Origin: Chloroflexota bacterium
Lineage (GTDB): Bacteria > Chloroflexota > Dehalococcoidia > SHYB01 > JACPQI01
Direction: 5' to 3'
NCBI GenBank assembly: GCA_016190545.1
Contig: JACPQI010000201.1
Coordinates: forward strand, 1 to 13,399
DNA length: 13,399 nucleotides
A model generated the notes under the pieces. The model ran no database searches, was not told where the DNA came from, and worked only from the letters and a program-made list of their open reading frames with translations. Positions 1,362 through 12,881 of the stretch are shown here, one piece after another. Numbering within the stretch: the first letter of the stretch is position 1; each line of letters starts with the position of its first letter. The position numbers and the translations under genes are program-made.

Positions 1362-1808
1362 TCAGGCGCCTCGCAGCACTTCCTTGAGGAAGTCCCCAGG
1401 GGTGGTCACTTTCACAGGCAGCCCGGCTGCGAGCACTTTCGCAGTGAGCAGATGTCGCCGGTCCAACGTCAACAGATGTGTGGCCTGGCAGGACAGGGCT
1501 GCGGCAAGCACATGGGCGTCTTTCCTGTCAACCAGAGCGCAGCACTCCTCGACACGGCTTGCTGGGGGAGACGCCGCTACCTCCGGCTCTACCCCGGCAA
1601 GCTGTTGGTAGAACCGCAGGAGCTCTGCCTGGCCGAACTTCTCGGCGATGTTGACACGGGCCTCCAGAAGCACGCGAGTGGTGACCACGACGCGGAAGCG
1701 TTTCGCCTGGCACACCTCAAACGCCGCCGCCGATCCCCCTGAGGGCGAGCGCGACGCCGCCACCAGGACACTGGCGTCCAGGAAAACGACAGCCCGCCCG
1801 GCTTCCAC
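1362..1808 (-). CDS. PIN-domain toxin (VapC-like ribonuclease)
   Basis: The 148-residue product is a single PIN domain of normal length. PIN toxins are magnesium-dependent ribonucleases that cut tRNA, rRNA or mRNA when freed from their antitoxin. The acidic quartet is visible: Asp11 in FLDASVL, Glu49 in VLLEAR, Asp97 in DRKDAHVLAAA, and Asp116 in LLTLDRRHLL. The C-terminal VTTPGDFLKEVL is typical of this PIN group. The start is GTG at 1806-1808, immediately after the antitoxin TAG stop at 1809-1811, with no base between them. GGAGG at 1818-1822 lies inside the antitoxin's last codons, 9 bases before the GTG, so translation is likely coupled. The target RNA cannot be told from sequence. Confidence 0.88.
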   Translation of the reverse strand: MEAGRAVVFLDASVLVAASRSPSGGSAAAFEVCQAKRFRVVVTTRVLLEARVNIAEKFGQAELLRFYQQLAGVEPEVAASPPASRVEECCALVDRKDAHVLAAALSCQATHLLTLDRRHLLTAKVLAAGLPVKVTTPGDFLKEVLRGA

Positions 1809-2087
1809 CTACAGCTTCCTCCGCTTAAGTAGGGCGCGAACCCGCCGGACCGTCGCCTCGTCGAGCTTGTCCTCCTCCAGAAAGCGCGTAATATCCCCTT
1901 CGGTATAGCGGCGCAGGGACTCACTCTCCGGGCGCAGAGGCTCTATCTCAAGGCGGTCCCCAACGAGGGAGACCCGCAGCAAGGTATGCGCATCGATCCC
2001 CAGGGCCTGGCGAAATGGCGCGGGAATAGTAATTTGGCCTTTGGGCAGCGGCCTCACAATCTTGCGCGGCGCAGCGACCTTCGGCAT
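1809..2087 (-). CDS. AbrB/MazE-type antitoxin
   Basis: The 92-residue protein begins with a swapped-hairpin AbrB DNA-binding domain (about residues 8-52), with the diagnostic PLPKGQITIPAPFRQALGI stretch and an ending Asp-Arg-Leu-Glu-Ile-Glu strand. The C-terminal part (about 58-92) is charged and helical (YTEGDITRFLEEDKLDEATV, then an Arg/Lys-rich end). In this family that part binds and blocks the partner PIN toxin. GGAGG at 2095-2099, 7 bases before the ATG, supports the start. An extended -10 promoter with an inverted repeat over it lies upstream, as expected for an operon that represses itself. Operon with the PIN gene is nearly certain from the zero-base junction. Confidence 0.88.
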   Translation of the reverse strand: MPKVAAPRKIVRPLPKGQITIPAPFRQALGIDAHTLLRVSLVGDRLEIEPLRPESESLRRYTEGDITRFLEEDKLDEATVRRVRALLKRRKL

Positions 2088-2229: not shown

Positions 2230-2238
2230 TGCTAGAAT
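2230..2238 (+). promoter_or_regulatory. Extended -10 promoter of the RNase HI-MoaC gene
   Basis: The sequence TGC-TAGAAT is an extended -10 element, TAGAAT at 2233-2238 matching 5 of 6 consensus bases. No good -35 box is seen 17 bases upstream, which is usual for extended -10 promoters. Transcription would begin near 2245. That is downstream of the ATG at 2237, so that codon cannot be the start and the GTG at 2273 is favoured. Confidence 0.5.
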
Positions 2239-2272
2239 GGGGCCAGCTTTGCGGGCAGATAGGAGCGACGCC

Positions 2273-3196
2273 GTGGGGCACATCCGCATCTACACGGACG
2301 GGGCGTGCCAGGGCAACCCGGGACCCGGCGGCTGGGCGGCCGTCCTGCTCGACGACAGCCGGAAAACGGTGCTGCAGGGCCATGAGGAGCGTACGACGAG
2401 CAACCGCATGGAGCTGCTGGCGGCCATCCAAGGGCTGGAGCATACGCCGGAAGGCAGCCACGCGACGGTCTACAGCGATAGCCAGTACCTGGTCTTTACG
2501 ATGACCAGGGGATGGAAGCGCAACAAGAATCTTGACCTCTGGCAGCGCCTCGACGAGCTGGTGAAAAAACGGGAGGTGCACTGGGACTGGATAGAGGGCC
2601 ACGCTGGTCATCCGGAGAACGAGGAGGCGAACCGCCTGGCCCAGGCCCAAACGGGGATGTCCGGTGTTCCATCGGCGAAAAGTGAGCAAGCGCCGCCAGT
2701 GGCGAGGCCCGCTGGAGTCGGCCCATCGCTGACGCACGTTGACGAGCAGGGCCGGGCCCGCATGGTGGACATCGGCGGGAAGCCGGAGACGGCGCGGGAG
2801 GCCGTCGCCAAGGGCCGGGTGCTGATGGAGCGGTCGACGCTGGAGCTGGTGAAGCGGGGGCTTATCGAGAAGGGCGACGTGCTCTCGGTGGCGCGGACGG
2901 CGGGCATCATGGCGGCCAAACGCACCCACGATCTGGTCCCCCTGTGCCACCCGCTGCTACTGACCCACGTGAGCGTGGACCTGCAGCCCAACGACCAGGC
3001 CGGGGCCATCGATATTTCGGCGACGGTGCGGACGACGGGCAAGACCGGGGTGGAGATGGAGGCGCTGACGGCGGTGAGCGTGGCGGCGCTGACTGTCTAC
3101 GATATGTGCAAGGCGGCGGACAAGGGGATGCGCATCACCGAGGTGCGTCTGGTGCGCAAGACGGGCGGCAAGAGCGGGACGTATGTGAGGGAGTGA
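2273..3196 (+). CDS. Ribonuclease HI - MoaC fusion (cyclic pyranopterin monophosphate synthase)
   Basis: One 307-residue frame carries two complete enzymes. Residues 1-126 are ribonuclease HI, which cuts RNA in RNA-DNA hybrids: [15 protein letters not shown] (Asp9), RMELLA (Glu47), YSDSQY (Asp69) and GHAGHPENE (His110). The fourth metal ligand, Asp134 in E. coli, is Asn120 here. Residues 151-307 are MoaC, which makes cyclic pyranopterin monophosphate in the first stage of molybdenum cofactor synthesis. It retains Lys200 (EKGDVL), [21 protein letters not shown], Asp277 and Lys284 in the YDMCKAADK region. A Pro/Ala/Ser-rich linker (127-150) joins them. GTG at 2273 is chosen over ATG at 2237 because AGGAG (2261-2265) lies 7 bases upstream and the promoter overlaps the ATG. 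An internal start at Met129 (position 2657) could yield free MoaC. No other moa gene is nearby. Confidence 0.9.
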
Positions 3197-5158: not shown

Positions 5159-6133
5159 TTACTTCCGCCGCTCGACCACGTAGTCGGTGAGGCCGAGGAG
5201 GGAGCGGCGGGCGGGGGTGGCGGGGAGACGCATGGCGGCAGCGCGGGCGGAGTCCAGGAAACCGTTCGCCACGGCGTAGGCCTCCCGGATGAGGCCCGAG
5301 TTGCGGATGCGGTCGATGAGCTTGCGCAATTGCTCCGGATCGCGCTGGCCGTCGTTCAGGCCCAGCTCAGCGAGCGGCGTGCGCTCCAGCAGCATGATGA
5401 AGGGCAGAGTAACCGTCCCCTGGAGCAGGTCGGAGCCGACGGGTTTGCCCACCTCGTTGGCCTCGCCCTGGAAGTCGATGATATCATCCACAATCTGGAA
5501 GGCCTGGCCCAGGTTGTAGCCGAAGGCGCGCGCGGCCTGGACCGTCTCCTCGGGCGCGCCACTCAGGATGGCGCCCGTCTCGGCGGCGGTCTGGAAGAGG
5601 GAGCTGGTCTTACGGAAGATGCGCTGGAAGTAGTGCTCCCGGTCTTGCCGCCAGTTGAAGGCGTCGTGGGTCTCCTGGAGTTCGCCGGTGGAGAGGTGCA
5701 TGATGGCCTCGGCGAAGAGGCGGATGGCCCGCACGTTCTTGGTATCGCAGACCAGGGTGGCGGACTTGGCGAAGAGGTAGTCGCCCACCAGGACGGCAGT
5801 GTGCTGGCCGAACAGGCTACTCAGGGTCGGGCGTCCGCGCCGCACTCGGGAGTTGTCGATAGTGTCGTCATGGATGAGGGTGGCGATGTGCAGCAGCTCC
5901 ACGGCGCAGGCCATGAGGACGGGGTTGTCCGGCTCGGGAGGCGTGTGGAATCGGGAGGCCAGCAGCGTGAGGGCGGGGCGGACCCTCTTGCCGTCCGTTA
6001 CCAAAACCTTATCGAGCATGCTGGACAGGGGGCCGAAGGAGGCCTGGGCGGCGCCCTTGAGTCGGCGCTTGACCTCCTCGAGCTCCGCCGCGATCGGTTC
6101 GTAGATGGCGGCGATGGATGTGGTGCTGCTCAT
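5159..6133 (-). CDS. Trans-polyprenyl diphosphate synthase, probably long-chain
   Basis: This 324-residue enzyme adds isopentenyl diphosphate units to an allylic primer, making the side chain of quinones or carotenoid/lipid precursors. Conserved parts are GKRVRPAL (residues 48-55), the first aspartate-rich motif DDTID (89-93) followed by RRGRPT, the GD at 117-118, the Lys-Thr pair (175-176) in FRKTSSLF, and the second motif DDIID (216-220). The fifth residue before the first motif is Ala84. A small residue there is known to allow long products, whereas aromatic residues limit the enzyme to short ones. Length and motifs fit an IspB/HepT-like synthase; exact chain length is unknown. ATG 6133 is chosen because alignment to the family starts there, although no strong ribosome binding site is seen. 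It lies 125 bases after the MscS-OtsB gene on the same strand. Confidence 0.92.
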   Translation of the reverse strand: MSSTTSIAAIYEPIAAELEEVKRRLKGAAQASFGPLSSMLDKVLVTDGKRVRPALTLLASRFHTPPEPDNPVLMACAVELLHIATLIHDDTIDNSRVRRGRPTLSSLFGQHTAVLVGDYLFAKSATLVCDTKNVRAIRLFAEAIMHLSTGELQETHDAFNWRQDREHYFQRIFRKTSSLFQTAAETGAILSGAPEETVQAARAFGYNLGQAFQIVDDIIDFQGEANEVGKPVGSDLLQGTVTLPFIMLLERTPLAELGLNDGQRDPEQLRKLIDRIRNSGLIREAYAVANGFLDSARAAAMRLPATPARRSLLGLTDYVVERRK

Positions 6134-6258
6134 ATGGTTGACGTCTGTAGTACGCGGGGCTAACCACGGCGCACACAGGCCCCATCCATGATACACCGAA
6201 CAGCCCTCCGCGCATCGGGCGAATGCCTGTGGGAGAGTGTGGAGGTCTACACCTTGAC

Positions 6259-7989
6259 CTAGGCCTTAGGCTTGACTAGCTCCTCCCGAATCCACCGCAG
6301 CAACCACTCCACCTCATCCACGGAATTGAGGAGCAGGTCAATAGCGGCGCGGAATTCCGGTCTGTTCTCCGGCCCCACTATGCCAATACCCATGGCCTGC
6401 ACTCCGCTTTCCCGGAGCCCAGGCAGCGTATAGAATGCGTCCAGGTCGGTGGTGTCATCGCCCAGATACAGCACACCTTGGAGCCCGTGTCGAGACACCA
6501 ACGACCGCAGTGTGGCGCCCTTGTTTACCGCCAGCGGGGGGCGAAGCTCTACCACCCGTTTCCCCTCTGTCACCTTGAGAGAAGCAGCCGTAGACGAGCG
6601 TGCGATGGCAGCCAGAATAGCGCTGTGCGCCGCCTCCGGGTCCTCTGCCTGTCGGTAGTGAATGCTCCCTGTAATGCCCTTGCGCTCGATACGCACTCCA
6701 GGAAACTTCTGTACGCTGTCCAGCTCGTCCAGTACCCTTGAGATAAGCGGCAGGTACTCCGCCGCCCCGGGCGCAAGCTGCACCCCTCCATCCTCAATCC
6801 ACTCCAGCCCGTGGTTTCCTACATAGGTGAGACCTTCTATCCCTACCATCTGCCTCGTCCGCTCTGCAGGCCGACCAGAGACCACAGCCAGCAGCGCCAC
6901 ATGCTCCTGCAGGGCCGCGAGGGCATCCTTCACATTCGGAGGGACAACCGCCTCTTCCGGGGTCGACGCGATGGGGCTTAGCGTACCGTCCAGATCCGTC
7001 ACCAGACCCCAGGGACGGCTGCGTATCACCGGCGCCAGCCGCGCTCGTTGCTCCAGGGCATGGGACGTCTCCATGGAGAAGGTCACGCTCACGCCCCCGC
7101 GCTTTGCCCCCCGTCGCGCCTCAGCAGTCTGTTGCTCCAGGGGATTGCCGAAGTACACCTTGGTATGCGGCCACGGGATTTCGATCCCCACTTCATCAAA
7201 ACGCCGCTTTAACCGCCGCCGCAGCTCACCCATCACATCCCACTGTTTAATGGGCCTAGTGTTGCCGGTGATCTTGATCTCCACTCCGGAATCGCCCAGG
7301 CTATCCACCCGCAACACTGTCGGCGGCTCCAGCACCATGGTGCCCCAATGGGGGTCCTCGGCCAGCTCACGACCGACTTGGTTGGTCACGGCGATGACCT
7401 TGTCCAAGTCCTCCCCGTAGCCGACGCTCACGTTCATATTCACCCGTGACCACTCTTTGGTGAAGTTGCTGGCGACGGTAATCTCCCCGTTGGGAATGGA
7501 ATGCACGATACCATCCAGGTCGCGGAGCACCGTGCGCCGCAACGTGATGTCCTCCACCAGGCCGGCCACCCCCGCGATGCGCACGACGTCACCCCTTGAG
7601 TACCAGTCCTCTACTAGCATGGTAAGACCGTTCAGCACATCGCGCACCAGGTTCTGGGCGGCGAAGCCGACGGCGATGCCAGCAATGCCAACGCCCGCGA
7701 TAAACGGGGCGATGTTCACTCCTATCTCTGTCAGCACCACGAACGCCACCGCTACAATCAACACAAACGCTGTCGTCCGCCGTATCGCGAGCTGCAAGGT
7801 GTCGATACGTTGTTTAACTTCGTCCTCGTCCCGGCTCCGCAAGTCACGACGCAAGAGCAAGCGCACCAGGCGGGGCGCCGCGCGCGCCGCCATGCGCCAC
7901 GCCACATAAGCCAAAAGAATGATGACGGCGACCCGTATCGTGTGCGGAACCACGGTATCTCGCACACTGCCCCAGTCAATATCCGGCAT
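6259..7989 (-). CDS. MscS channel - trehalose-6-phosphate phosphatase (OtsB) fusion
   Basis: This 576-residue protein joins two complete modules. Residues 1-283 are an MscS-family mechanosensitive channel: TM1 at 15-37, TM2 at 72-92, and a pore helix at 94-128 with the Gly/Ala-packed run IAGVGIAGIAVGFAAQN and Gly121. Next is the beta domain (RGDVVRIAGVAGLVEDI, then SIPNGEI) and the alpha/beta domain ending near residue 282. A charged linker (284-322) leads to residues 323-576, a HAD-superfamily OtsB that turns trehalose-6-phosphate into trehalose. It has the nucleophile motif TDLDGTLSP (Asp332, Asp334), VVSGRP (Ser371), GNHGLEW cap contact, Lys490, and GDDTTD (511-515). All catalytic residues are present. 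The start ATG is 2 bases after the TAA of MscS-OtsA, so translation is coupled. As MscS forms heptamers, the enzyme would sit in the cytoplasm under the channel. Confidence 0.94.
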   Translation of the reverse strand: MPDIDWGSVRDTVVPHTIRVAVIILLAYVAWRMAARAAPRLVRLLLRRDLRSRDEDEVKQRIDTLQLAIRRTTAFVLIVAVAFVVLTEIGVNIAPFIAGVGIAGIAVGFAAQNLVRDVLNGLTMLVEDWYSRGDVVRIAGVAGLVEDITLRRTVLRDLDGIVHSIPNGEITVASNFTKEWSRVNMNVSVGYGEDLDKVIAVTNQVGRELAEDPHWGTMVLEPPTVLRVDSLGDSGVEIKITGNTRPIKQWDVMGELRRRLKRRFDEVGIEIPWPHTKVYFGNPLEQQTAEARRGAKRGGVSVTFSMETSHALEQRARLAPVIRSRPWGLVTDLDGTLSPIASTPEEAVVPPNVKDALAALQEHVALLAVVSGRPAERTRQMVGIEGLTYVGNHGLEWIEDGGVQLAPGAAEYLPLISRVLDELDSVQKFPGVRIERKGITGSIHYRQAEDPEAAHSAILAAIARSSTAASLKVTEGKRVVELRPPLAVNKGATLRSLVSRHGLQGVLYLGDDTTDLDAFYTLPGLRESGVQAMGIGIVGPENRPEFRAAIDLLLNSVDEVEWLLRWIREELVKPKA

Positions 7990-7991
7990 GT

Positions 7992-10628
7992 TTACCTACC
8001 TCTGCTTGTTTCCTGCGGTGTAGCGAGGGTACGTCTCGCCTTTCGCCTTCCATCACCCTCTTCCGCGATGAACTCCCGCGCGCCTGTCACTGTCTGCTCG
8101 TCAGCAGTTTCAACACGCGATATTTCCGAGAGCAGGCGCGAGGCCCAGCGGTACACGTCATGCTCTTGCACCTGTGTCCGCAGCCGCTGCATCCGCCGGC
8201 TTTGCTCCGCACTATCCATCTCCAATGCCCGATTCAGGGCATCGGCAAAACCCTCGGTGTCATAGGGATTGATAAGTAAGGCATCGCCCAGTTCGGTGGC
8301 GGCCCCTGTGGACTTGCTGAGCAAGAGCACGCCGCTGTTGTCCGTCCTGCTCGCGATGTACTCCTTGGCAATGAGGTTCATGCCGTCATGCAATGAACTT
8401 ACCACGCAGACGTCGGCCATCCCGTAGAGAGACCACAGCGCTCTGGTGTCGAACTGCCTCCGCAGATAGACCACCGGCCGCCACGACCCACGCTGGTGCC
8501 GCCAGTTCACGTAGTCTACCAGGTGTTCCACCTCGTCTGTCACCGCTTTGTACTCTTGGATTTGGGACCGGCTCGGCACGCCCACTTGAACAAAGGTGAA
8601 CTTGCCGATCCGGTCGGGGTATTTCGTGAAAAAGCGGTCAATGGCGCGCAGCCGCTCCGGGATGCCTTTCGTGTAGTCCAGTCGGTCCACACCCAGCCCT
8701 ATCCGGCAACCGTCCAGCGCCAGGTTACGCTGGAACTGGGCGCGCTGGCGCAGCACCGGGGCGCTGTCTACACCCTGCGAGATCTGTTCAAAGTCCACGC
8801 CTATCGGGAAAGACCGCACTACAGTCTGTCGCCCCTGACGAACAATCGTAGAGCGGTCATAGTCCACCCGCGACTCCAGGGTCTCGTCCACGCTGCGGAG
8901 GAAGTTGTTGCAAAACTGCCGCACATGGAATCCCATCAGGTCGTTGCCCAGGAGACCATCGAGCAACTCCTCAGCCCAGGGACAGGCCCGGAATACCTCG
9001 CTGGAGGGCCAGGGGATGTGCCAGAAGTGCGCAATGGTTGCAGGGACGCGGGCCTCGCGGAGCAACCGCGGCACCAGGGCGAGGTGAAAGTCCTGGAGGA
9101 AAACAAAGGCCCCCCGGCCCCGCGCCTCTTCGGCAATAGCCTCCGCGAACAGTTTGTTTACCTCCTGGTAGCCCTGCCAGAACTGGGCGTCGAAGCGGGG
9201 CTTGACGTACACCGCGTGGCACAACGGCCATAGCACCTGGTTGGAGAAGCCGTAGTAATAGGACGCTTCCTGTTCCTTCGAAAGAGCAAGGCGGCGCAGC
9301 GTGTAGTCCCCTCGGTCAGGCGGCACCCGCACCCGCCCGTCCCTATCCGTTACCTCCCAGTCGGCGCTGCCGCCGCCATGCGCCACCCACACCCCGCCGA
9401 GCACGGACATCACAGGGTCCAAGGCGCTGGCCATCCCACTCACGGGCCTGCTCCAGCGAATCGACCTGCCTTCGAAGTTGTGTATATAGGGCTCGCGGTT
9501 GGAGGCGACAATAAACAGCGTCTCCGAAAAACGCCCCTTCGCCAGCGCATGCAAGTCCCGCGCGCTCCCGCCCACCTCGCGGCGCACGTCCTGGCTGCGC
9601 AGCATGTCGGTGAGCGGGCTTTCCATGCCCTCCTGGTACAAGCGGTGCGCGACGCGCTGAAGGATTTTCTCCTCTAATGCCTCGCGTTCACCGGAGTCGA
9701 TGACGTGATAGAACAAGAGGAACCCGTAGCCGTCTTTCTCGCTTTTTGGATCTGGACTCACGTAGAACGGTTCGTCCTCGGCGATACCCGCCAACACGGA
9801 GGCCGCACCCCGCAACTCCTCGAGGAGGGCCTGCTCGACAAATGCGCCATCAGCCTCACCCGTGATGCGCACAGGGGTTGAGCACAACGTCGCCTGCTCG
9901 GTCTGGTGGTAGGTGGTGACCATCATATGCCACAGCCGCCGGTTGGGCACGGCTACAAGGTTGTTGGCCCGTGTGCGGATACGCACGCCTTGCCACGTGA
10001 TTTCCATGACATGCCCCGCCACGCCATTCTCCAGGCGCACGAAGTCGCCGACCCGAAGGTGTCCGCGCCGGCTCAGCCGGTAGTACATCATCACATTCGC
10101 CAGGACGTCTTGAAACACCAGGAAGATCGGCGCCAGCAACAAGCCGCCCAACGCGAACAGCGGCGTGAGCTCCACATCCACCACCGCCAGCAAGACGAGG
10201 GCTGTGATGAACGATGTGGCCATCGCCGCAAGCGTCTGCGCAAACCGCACCAGCGGCTCCGGCGTACGGCTGCTGCGCAGCTCATGGCCCAACAGCCGAT
10301 ACGTGGCCTCAATAATAACCGCCCCTACAGAAACTACGAATACGGCCAGGGTCGCCTTGGCCAGCGCAGCAAGAGCGTCATGGCCCTGGAAAAGCCGTGC
10401 TATGGCCAAGGCGACAAACGCGCCTGACAGCACAATCCACATCGGCACCGACCACCGCAACCGCTCCTGCATCACCTCGAAGCCCCGCCACCGCCTGTGG
10501 AGAGAGACGGCGTTTATCCTTCTCCTGGACACGTTCACCAAGACGAGGCCGGCCGCGCACCATAGCAGGAACACCGCCGTGGTGAGCGCGGCGTTGCCCC
10601 AGGCCGTGGTGGTCAAATCGTCCCACAT
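7992..10628 (-). CDS. MscS-like membrane domain - trehalose-6-phosphate synthase (OtsA) fusion
   Basis: This 878-residue protein has an N-terminal MscS-like part and a C-terminal family GT20 synthase. Hydrophobic helices are at about 13-33, 60-80, 88-110 and 133-151, followed by an MscS-type last helix (152-185) and beta domain (RVGDFVRLENGVAGHVMEI, then AVPNRRLW). The last helix lacks most of the Gly/Ala pattern of a standard pore. Residues 370-840 are OtsA, which joins glucose from a nucleotide sugar to glucose-6-phosphate. Seen are SNREP (376-380), the VSGMASAL acceptor loop, DFHLALVPRLL, HIPWPSSEVF, VDRLDYTKG (647-655, with the Arg and Lys that bind donor phosphates) and DGMNLIAKEY (748-757). 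AGGTGG at 10638-10643 is 9 bases before the ATG. The last 35 residues are polar and basic. The phosphatase partner follows 2 bases downstream. Confidence 0.94.
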   Translation of the reverse strand: MWDDLTTTAWGNAALTTAVFLLWCAAGLVLVNVSRRRINAVSLHRRWRGFEVMQERLRWSVPMWIVLSGAFVALAIARLFQGHDALAALAKATLAVFVVSVGAVIIEATYRLLGHELRSSRTPEPLVRFAQTLAAMATSFITALVLLAVVDVELTPLFALGGLLLAPIFLVFQDVLANVMMYYRLSRRGHLRVGDFVRLENGVAGHVMEITWQGVRIRTRANNLVAVPNRRLWHMMVTTYHQTEQATLCSTPVRITGEADGAFVEQALLEELRGAASVLAGIAEDEPFYVSPDPKSEKDGYGFLLFYHVIDSGEREALEEKILQRVAHRLYQEGMESPLTDMLRSQDVRREVGGSARDLHALAKGRFSETLFIVASNREPYIHNFEGRSIRWSRPVSGMASALDPVMSVLGGVWVAHGGGSADWEVTDRDGRVRVPPDRGDYTLRRLALSKEQEASYYYGFSNQVLWPLCHAVYVKPRFDAQFWQGYQEVNKLFAEAIAEEARGRGAFVFLQDFHLALVPRLLREARVPATIAHFWHIPWPSSEVFRACPWAEELLDGLLGNDLMGFHVRQFCNNFLRSVDETLESRVDYDRSTIVRQGRQTVVRSFPIGVDFEQISQGVDSAPVLRQRAQFQRNLALDGCRIGLGVDRLDYTKGIPERLRAIDRFFTKYPDRIGKFTFVQVGVPSRSQIQEYKAVTDEVEHLVDYVNWRHQRGSWRPVVYLRRQFDTRALWSLYGMADVCVVSSLHDGMNLIAKEYIASRTDNSGVLLLSKSTGAATELGDALLINPYDTEGFADALNRALEMDSAEQSRRMQRLRTQVQEHDVYRWASRLLSEISRVETADEQTVTGAREFIAEEGDGRRKARRTLATPQETSRGR

Positions 10629-11104: not shown

Positions 11105-11148
11105 CTGCGGAATGAATTCCGCAGCATGCCGCCGAATGAATTCGGCGG
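11105..11148. repeat. Twin near-identical hairpins with GAATGAATTC core
   Basis: Two perfect 20-base palindromic hairpins stand side by side. The first has CTGCGGAAT / ATTCCGCAG arms (11105-11113 and 11116-11124). The second has CCGCCGAAT / ATTCGGCGG arms (11129-11137 and 11140-11148). Each has the 2-base centre GA and shares the core GAATGAATTC while the outer bases differ in a paired way. Compensatory differences suggest selection for, or copying of, the folded form. They lie downstream of metG. A small AAAAG-GA-CTTTT inverted repeat follows at 11150-11161. Confidence 0.7.
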
Positions 11149-11204: not shown

Positions 11205-12881
11205 CTACCCGCCCGACTGCCCGTGCAGCTTTTCTACCTCGGTGGCGATCTCGATCTGCTCCAGCTTGCGGAACAGGGGTTGAGGCTGGTTGAAGGCGTG
11301 GCCGCCCGGCAGCCGGGCCGGCGCCCAGCCGACGGTATCCATAGCGCCGGGCAAGTTGAGAATGGCGTGGAGCTTGGCCGCGCTGAACGGCAGGAACGGG
11401 TAGAGCGAAGTCTTGAGGGCCGCGATGACCTGGATGGCGGTCCACAGGGTCGTCGCCGCCTTGCGGCGGTCCGTCTTGATGGCGGCCCACGGCGCCTTGG
11501 AGTCCAGGTAGCGGTTGGCCCCTTGGGCCAGGCTGAACGCGACACCAATAGCCAGCTTAAACTTGCAGGCGCCCAGGTTGGCACCTGTCTCCTTGACCGC
11601 TTCCTGGGCCTTTGCCAGCAATGCGGCCTCGTCCGTGCCCAGAGGCCCTGGCTCTGGAACACACTTGTCGAAGTTGCGATAGCTGAAAGTGAGCACCCGG
11701 TGGACCAAGTTGCCATAGGTAGCCACCAATTCATCGTTGTTGCGGCGTAGGAACTCCCGCCAAGAGAAATCGGCGTCGGAGGTCTCCGGCATGGCAGCGG
11801 AGAGGTAGTAGCGCAGCGGGTCGGGGTCGAACTTGTCGAGGTAATCGGGCGCCCACACGGCCCAGTTGCGGCTGGTGGAGAGCTTGCGGCCCTCCAGGTT
11901 CATGAACTCGTTGGCGGGCACGTCATAGGGCAGGTTGCGACCGCCATGGCCCAGCAGCAGAGCGGGCCAGATGATGGTGTGGAAGGGGATGTTGTCCTTG
12001 CCGATGAAGTAGTAAGAGCGGCAGTCCTCACCCTGCCAGAAGTCTCGCCAGGCCTCCGGCTTCCCCTGCCGCTGCGCCCACTCCTTGCTGGCCGAAAGAT
12101 AGCCGCACACCGCCTCGAACCAGACGTAGATGCGCTTGCTCTCCCAGCCCTCCAGCGGCACCGGCACCCCCCAGGAGATGTCCCGTGTGATGGCCCGGTC
12201 CTTCAGCCCCTCCTCCAGGTAGCCGAGGGTGAAGTTGCGCACGTTGGGCCGCCAGTGCTCCTGCCGGCGCACCCACTCCAGCAGCGGCTGCTGGAAGTCG
12301 CTGAGCTTGAAGAACAGGTGCTCCGACTCACGTATTTCGGGCCGGTCGCCGGAGATGCGGCACGTGAGGTCGATGAGCTGCACGGGGTCCAGGGTCTTGC
12401 CGCAGTTGTCGCACTGGTCGCCGCGCGCGCCCTGAAAGCCGCAGAAGGGGCAGGTCCCTTCCACGTAGCGGTCCGGCAGGAAGCGCTTGCAGGTGTGGCA
12501 ATAAGGCAAGGGCATGCTGGCCTTGTAGATGACGCCCTTCTTGTGCAGGGCGTCGAAGACCTCACGGAAGGTGCGGGCGTGGTTCTCCGTGCCGGTGGTG
12601 GTGAAGAGGTCGAAGGTGATGCCCAGCCTGCGCCAGGTGTCGAGGAACCCCGGGTGGTAGCGGTCTACGATGGCCTGGGGCGTGACGCCTTCCTTCTCGG
12701 CCAGCACAGTGATGGGGGTGCCGTGCTGGTCGCTGCCGGAGACCATGAGGACCTGGCTGCCGATGGCCCGGTGGTAGCGGGCGAAGATGTCGGCGGCCAG
12801 GTAGCAGCCCGCCAGGTGGCCCACGTGGATGGGGCCGTTGGCGTAGGGCCAGGCGACGCCGATGAAGATGCGTTCAGGCAT
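11205..12881 (-). CDS. metG: Methionyl-tRNA synthetase
   Basis: This 558-residue enzyme charges tRNA-Met. The class I signature HVGH (19-22) follows VAWPYANGPI, and the second signature appears as KLSTS (333-337) in the usual GRKLSTSRNW setting. The zinc-binding insertion is complete, with Cys pairs at 128/131, 144/147 and 157/160. The methionine pocket and connective peptide are intact (SGSDQHGTPI, WGVPVPLEGWESKRIYVWFEA, FIGKDNIPFHTIIWP). The anticodon-binding helical domain fills the C-terminal third. The optional tRNA-binding C-terminal extension (EMAP-like) is absent, which is common. The ATG at 12881 matches the family start, though its ribosome binding site is weak. It has its own extended -10 promoter upstream and is divergent from the DUF6941-like gene. 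Confidence 0.97.
   Translation of the reverse strand: MPERIFIGVAWPYANGPIHVGHLAGCYLAADIFARYHRAIGSQVLMVSGSDQHGTPITVLAEKEGVTPQAIVDRYHPGFLDTWRRLGITFDLFTTTGTENHARTFREVFDALHKKGVIYKASMPLPYCHTCKRFLPDRYVEGTCPFCGFQGARGDQCDNCGKTLDPVQLIDLTCRISGDRPEIRESEHLFFKLSDFQQPLLEWVRRQEHWRPNVRNFTLGYLEEGLKDRAITRDISWGVPVPLEGWESKRIYVWFEAVCGYLSASKEWAQRQGKPEAWRDFWQGEDCRSYYFIGKDNIPFHTIIWPALLLGHGGRNLPYDVPANEFMNLEGRKLSTSRNWAVWAPDYLDKFDPDPLRYYLSAAMPETSDADFSWREFLRRNNDELVATYGNLVHRVLTFSYRNFDKCVPEPGPLGTDEAALLAKAQEAVKETGANLGACKFKLAIGVAFSLAQGANRYLDSKAPWAAIKTDRRKAATTLWTAIQVIAALKTSLYPFLPFSAAKLHAILNLPGAMDTVGWAPARLPGGHAFNQPQPLFRKLEQIEIATEVEKLHGQSGG

Follow-up and report, generated by a model that had tools for sequence, protein, structure and literature searches.

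Osmoregulation in bacteria is commonly presented as having two distinct arms, the slow synthesis or uptake of solutes and the fast emergency release through mechanosensitive (MS) channels. The locus analyzed here joins both arms in one chain, and raises the question of whether cells couple trehalose synthesis to membrane tension. It lies in a stretch of 13,399 nucleotides from a Chloroflexota bacterium of the class Dehalococcoidia (GenBank assembly GCA_016190545.1, contig JACPQI010000201.1), hereafter the window, in which two adjacent genes each fuse an MscS-type membrane part to a predicted enzyme of trehalose synthesis, OtsA (trehalose-6-phosphate synthase) in one and OtsB (trehalose-6-phosphate phosphatase) in the other. 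Each fusion is recurrent but rare, and the double fusion was seen in this window alone. The broader result is that MscS-family valves and trehalose synthesis are linked at the gene level in this class, and no case found is more tightly fused than that of the window. With moderate confidence, we read the two genes as a putative membrane-tethered, trehalose-making module beside a tension-gated valve. Their features are the following (positions in the window):

7992..10628, minus strand, MscS-like::OtsA fusion gene, 878 residues
9612..10628, minus strand, diverged MscS-like membrane part, residues 1-339, five hydrophobic segments (hydropathy)
9915-10061, minus strand, beta domain of this membrane part, followed by the alpha/beta domain
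9519..9620, minus strand, linker before OtsA, 34 residues
8118..9512, minus strand, GT20 (trehalose-6-phosphate synthase) domain, residues 373-837, PF00982 425 bits
6259..7989, minus strand, MscS::OtsB fusion gene, 576 residues
7147..7989, minus strand, canonical MscS channel part, residues 1-281, third transmembrane helix (TM3) PFIAGVGIAGIAVGFAAQ
7012..7146, minus strand, linker between MscS and OtsB, 45 residues
6292..7026, minus strand, trehalose-phosphatase domain (HAD-IIB), residues 322-566

The OtsA fusion comes first and the OtsB fusion second, with 2 bases from the stop of one to the ATG of the other. Neither open reading frame (ORF) has an internal stop, and both hold their catalytic motifs. 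The purine-rich end of the OtsA fusion gene could act as a candidate ribosome site for the OtsB fusion gene. Open frames, Pfam, and NCBIfam thus bear out the original prediction of adjacent genes with an MscS-type domain on each Ots enzyme, as well as its order of synthase, then phosphatase. Compared with the known OtsA-OtsB pathway (GT20 plus HAD-IIB, as separate genes or as an OtsA::OtsB fusion), the locus has both enzyme domains, the catalytic motifs and the otsA-otsB order in common, and differs by the N-terminal membrane part on each enzyme. Classic OtsA and OtsB are soluble.

The OtsB fusion carries a canonical channel sequence. PF21088 (residues 73-112), PF00924 (113-177), PF21082 (183-271) and PF02358 (331-525) all score above their curated cut-offs, and the protein has the TM3 pore helix, beta domain and alpha/beta C-terminal domain that define the MscS superfamily and are shared with E. 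coli MscS. The closest solved structures of this part are the MscS entries 3t9n and 3udc (E ~1e-39), and its TM3 is canonical, as in solved MscS. Unlike these channels, the fusion adds an enzyme after the cytoplasmic part. This enzyme scores 166 bits with the NCBIfam trehalose-phosphatase model TIGR00685 (cut-off 68.05) and has HAD motifs I-IV. The channel may be a working valve, with OtsB presumably placed under its cytoplasmic cage. As solved MscS relatives are heptamers, the fusions would be expected to assemble as heptamers too. The linker before OtsB has 45-49 residues in one group of fusions (type 1, 570-584 residues) and 68-77 in another (type 2, 648-706 residues, partly named SAR202). 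In a structure model, the predicted local distance difference test (pLDDT) is below 50 at residues 273-306, and the channel part is weakly modeled at residues 91-180 (block means 36-65). Linker lengths and model favor a flexible leash over stiff mechanical coupling.

The membrane part of the OtsA fusion is of another kind. Pfam reports PF00924 at residues 190-238 (33.2 bits, cut-off 20.2) along with the GT20 domain; of the other MscS superfamily parts, PF21088 and PF21082 are unreported by the scan. Profile comparisons with hhalign, which rest on small alignments of 5 to 19 rows, give E 5.8e-21 to the MscS-like part of a family of MscS-like::DUF5752 proteins, versus E 1.2e-6 (residues 96-339) for the canonical MscS found in OtsB fusions, the latter alignment covering TM3, beta and alpha/beta domains. 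The idea that the same channel type is joined to both enzymes must hence be abandoned. DUF5752 itself (PF19027) was not found in the 878-residue protein by the Pfam scan, which places it outside the DUF5752 family. These proteins (PF00924+PF19027, unnamed, from Chloroflexota) are the closest relatives found for the OtsA membrane part and adjoin otsA-otsB genes of the same OtsA subfamily; they differ in being encoded by a separate gene, with DUF5752 where the window protein has the alpha/beta domain and OtsA.

The pore helix of the OtsA fusion has also diverged from that of MscS channels. The stretch aligned to TM3 starts with PLFALGGLLLAPIFLVFQ, and its mean Gly/Ala fraction over 24 positions is 0.27 in the OtsA fusions (10 gap-free rows) versus 0.34 in the comparison set (18 gap-free rows), a modest difference, as the ranges of both groups meet. 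Pro167 is present in this helix in 10 of 10 rows. This membrane part is probably an MscS-derived module and not an ordinary pore; given the fewer small residues and the proline in every row, it is more likely an anchor or a tension-input module than a free-flowing pore. The linker that follows measures 33-35 residues in all 11 rows of MscS-like fusions, one of which (P0130) lacks membrane helices. This last protein, of 550 residues and in the fused OtsA clade, begins inside the alpha/beta domain, and has either a truncated membrane part or an upstream frame break. A constant linker is the pattern one would expect if the membrane part communicated with the enzyme, and direct tension control of OtsA is plausible. 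The enzyme shows the GT20 fold with the catalytic motifs of OtsA: SNREP 376, YYYGFSN 457, QD 512-513, HIPWP 537, DRLDYTKG 648, SRSQ 686 and HDGMNL 747. The structure model is weak at residues 151-250 (pLDDT block means 47-61), and fold searches with the models of both fusions matched the enzyme domains alone, the MscS parts being barely probed where the models are weak.

Could such an arrangement be an accident of one assembly? This was rejected, because both architectures recur in other records. MscS-OtsB occurs in 19 of the 120 top homologues listed, counting the protein of the window itself: a first group of 8 proteins of 532-584 residues (with the window's among them) and a second of 11 proteins of 517-706 residues, at ~40% identity and partly named SAR202. 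The nearest OtsB fusions are 58-73% identical to the window protein. MscS-like::OtsA occurs in 10 of the 120 top homologues listed, which include one at 99% identity to the window's, and OtsA fusions of other records show 50-64% identity. Named homologues are from SAR202, Dehalococcoidia, and Chloroflexi. Within 393 genomes of Dehalococcoidia, scanned with at most two candidates scored per genome, the full OtsA fusion occurs in 3 (G044, G072 and G122), and the same OtsA subfamily (at least 620 bits) occurs without fusion at 45 more places in 44 genomes. None of the 3 has an OtsB fusion beside it, in G122 on a contig that ends close by, so that the expectation of fusions in other genomes held for each fusion and failed for the pair as a recurring unit. 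A separate otsB adjoins the OtsA fusion in G044, and a separate MscS adjoins that of G122, on a 5.9 kb contig. G072 has no otsB on the contig of its OtsA fusion and no PF02358 match. The OtsB fusion is present in the SAR202 genomes G005 and G006 (loci L005 and L006). The first of these also encodes a 420-residue MscS-family protein (L121, 9727-10989; 104 bits with the OtsA-type membrane profile), on a different contig from its otsA; this protein may be related to the OtsA membrane part without being fused. Viral contigs gave 16 pattern matches, with no relative among them.

The link between the two functions extends far beyond the fusions. We surveyed 119 otsB loci in 115 genomes, taken from among the matches listed, leaving out OtsA-OtsB-type frames and two very long frames (G123:C100, G215:C110). 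By score thresholds of our own profiles, 49 loci belong to class I, which has the OtsA subfamily of the window, and 45 to class II, whose otsB scores closest to the window's and mostly faces another GT20. The remaining 25 are made up of 5 long frames, 18 loci lacking GT20, of which 3 have MscS nearby, and 2 others. Among long ORFs with a trehalose-phosphatase domain, L174 and L175 join it to glycosyl hydrolase family 65, and a second HAD domain is joined to it in L174 and L168; L172 and L173 are similar long frames. Of the 82 loci flanked by 1.5 kb or more on each side, 40 have an MscS-family gene no farther than 3 kb from otsB, and its strand is in every case that of otsB (32 loci were dropped for short flanks and the five long frames were not counted). 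Without genomes G001-G019, known before this count, it is 30 of 71 loci; a few other genomes had an MscS locus known earlier, not via otsB. As a rough control, in 11 genomes with a strong match to MetG, encoded upstream of the fusions in the window, no PF00924 place was found within 3 kb of it, the nearest being 12.8 kb off, at a 59-residue MetG fragment in G044.

Both classes contribute to this linkage. In class I, an MscS-like::DUF5752 protein is encoded beside unfused otsA-otsB at 29 of 49 loci. These proteins, of about 460 residues, directly follow otsA-otsB in L016 (13296-14681), L027 (13184-14566), L035 (10147-11526) and others, and the full order MscS, otsA, otsB, MscS-like::DUF5752 is found at 7 loci (L016, L023, L027, L035, L123, L124 and L126). 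The DUF5752 part has 920 matches, and 119 of the best 120 listed have both Pfam domains. In class II, MscS lies upstream of otsB on the same strand at 19 of 45 loci; 5 of these pairs overlap as called and 11 are spaced by 3-85 bases. Taken together, both fusions and the valve genes beside trehalose genes in relatives make it likely that these cells tie trehalose making to the membrane and to a release valve. The linkage also gives a first function guess for DUF5752, a domain without a known function, for which our literature search, covering few subscription papers and no preprints, found no paper.

Genes that lie side by side can fuse by simple proximity, and the strongest competing explanation is that a valve and an enzyme needed under the same osmotic stress were joined as operon neighbors, leaving two independent halves in one polypeptide. 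We consider this possible, though not probable. The close spacing of the class II pairs is in its favor, as is the OtsB tree, where type 2 fusions group with unfused MscS-otsB neighbors (99% support in the SH-like approximate likelihood ratio test, SH-aLRT), though the MscS of these neighbors is of a far subfamily. It fits less well with the different MscS types joined to OtsA and OtsB, or with an OtsA linker that keeps its length at 50-63% sequence identity. The trees give no clean history of the OtsB and MscS genes. The window's OtsB is placed on the side of class II, and the split between classes is weak (77% SH-aLRT). In the MscS tree, which carries a long-branch warning, type 1 has no supported sister, and type 2 groups with MscS whose loci lack trehalose genes (88%). 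A single clade of types 1 and 2 was not rejected by the approximately unbiased test (p 0.081 on OtsB, with two long rows excluded, and 0.245 on MscS). Tree position and linkers suggest, without establishing it, that the MscS-OtsB fusion arose twice independently.

A further argument against mere proximity is that members of the OtsA subfamily are elsewhere joined to a different membrane module. The OtsA of the window groups in the class I subfamily with 100% SH-aLRT against other GT20. Among 109 further GT20 matches (7 without the search motif), 36 have more than 200 residues ahead of GT20. A pair of hydrophobic segments, spaced by about 140-145 residues, is seen in 33 of the 36, and the second segment lies 91-94 residues ahead of the GT20 motif in 29 of the 36. 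The sCache_3_2 domain is weakly matched in 4 of 16 such proteins. A HAMP domain, likely by eye, was unsupported (1 of 16, E 0.16). These Cache-like module::OtsA proteins, of about 740-780 residues and with named sources that include Nitrospirota, Syntrophorhabdaceae, and Phycisphaerae, share with the window the OtsA subfamily and an N-terminal membrane module, with a two-helix module instead of the MscS-like part; those included in the tree, 10 in number, make up a single clade within the subfamily (99% SH-aLRT). P0181, P0216, P0232, and 30 more are predicted to be transmembrane-sensor trehalose-6-phosphate synthases. Finding a Cache-like module in the same position in other phyla suggests that membrane input is a habit of this OtsA subfamily.

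Alternatively, the MscS parts could be mere membrane anchors and oligomerization scaffolds that gather enzyme copies, with neither sensing nor coupling to flux. We regard this as rather unlikely. It is compatible with the diverged TM3 of the OtsA fusion and with the long OtsB linkers, but the OtsB fusion retains a canonical channel sequence, including a pore helix that an anchor would not need. Moreover, in 25 genomes picked for MscS-family genes at trehalose genes, some of them perhaps incomplete, 16 have a single PF00924 gene, and in all 16 it is the one at otsB, the only result here free of that choice. In those genomes, the MscS at otsB probably must act as a valve.

In the reading that we favor, of a membrane-tethered module beside a valve, the predicted synthase would be held at the membrane by its diverged MscS-like part, and the predicted phosphatase would hang from a canonical MscS channel sequence on a likely flexible linker. 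Trehalose, the presumed product, would then be made at the membrane, next to a tension-gated valve able to release it. When tension rises, the valve would open, and the same membrane state might lower synthesis, or stop it from running against the leak, which is the least certain step. Membrane tension may in this way change enzyme activity. A bolder version is a "chanzyme" osmostat, with MscS-type heptamers within both enzymes, where one tension signal would open the valve and set the synthesis rate, trehalose-6-phosphate would be handed from an OtsA ring to an OtsB ring, and separate-gene versions with an MscS-like::DUF5752 docking ring would exist in many Dehalococcoidia; we find it doubtful. 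Bacterial MS channels release trehalose, as stated in a review (PMC9322971).

Several observations weigh against the favored reading. Another publication cites cases in B. subtilis and E. coli against a role of MS channels as general exporters of compatible solutes in adapted cells, and reports channel-independent export of other solutes (PMC7174268). With no MscS-family gene within 3 kb of otsB at 42 of the 82 flanked loci, the link to trehalose is common, not obligatory. The double fusion was not found elsewhere in the 393 class genomes or in 7 genomes of the order of G122, and G005 and G006 also keep, in addition to their OtsB fusion, an unfused otsA-otsB pair whose OtsA belongs to the window's subfamily. 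Direct mechanical gating of OtsB, and with it direct tension control of this enzyme, seems unlikely, because the linkers are long, group-dependent, and of low model confidence. Finally, the OtsA equivalog model TIGR02400 gives 455.7 bits for a cut-off of 564.85, so the product is not certain. A related glycoside made under the same membrane logic would agree with this score and with the Ser-Gly found in place of the donor-loop Gly-Gly of OtsA; we deem it improbable, the phosphatase scoring well above its own cut-off.

Channels with a catalytic or ligand-binding domain in the same chain are known: TRPM7 and TRPM2, which are eukaryotic and unrelated, and bacterial MscS with ligand-binding domains (bCNG), which have no enzyme. 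To our knowledge, none acts on an osmolyte pathway. Among the titles and abstract beginnings listed by our literature search, there was no description of a fusion of MscS with a trehalose enzyme, or of such an operon, which agrees with the earlier statement that no described system of this form was known to its author. Overall, the observation behind the original prediction is confirmed and its interpretation partly supported, since the fusions are real and recurrent, the gene linkage reaches far beyond the window and this search returned no prior description. According to one publication, it is not yet fully understood how cells match the concentration of solutes inside to the salt outside (PMC7174268). 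The fusions offer a system for asking whether tension directly controls an osmolyte enzyme.

The two genes are flanked as follows, and we do not count the downstream neighbor in the module:

5159..6136, minus strand, polyprenyl diphosphate synthase, PF00348 212 bits, next gene downstream
11205..12881, minus strand, MetG, upstream neighbor

Across most of its length, MetG shares 60-65% identity with its counterpart in 21 of the 35 Chloroflexota genomes compared, which, like the named homologues of the fusions, fits a host from this phylum. Between metG and the OtsA fusion, at 11107-11146, are two near-identical palindromes of 16 bases each, GCGGAATGAATTCCGC and GCCGAATGAATTCGGC, with starts 24 bases apart. 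A promoter scan of the window found no sites; terminator-like sites number 11 versus 4.8 expected, 7 of them within genes. Elsewhere in the window, 1362-2087 (minus strand) encodes a protein with a MazE-type antitoxin domain, then a PIN-domain protein, and looks like an ordinary toxin-antitoxin pair. The plus strand holds, at 2237-3196, a 319-residue ORF in which RNase HI is fused to MoaC; in a search of 19 genomes, G013, G003, G011 and G001 each have a single match that covers RNase HI and MoaC together, and in G044 the two lie within one open frame.
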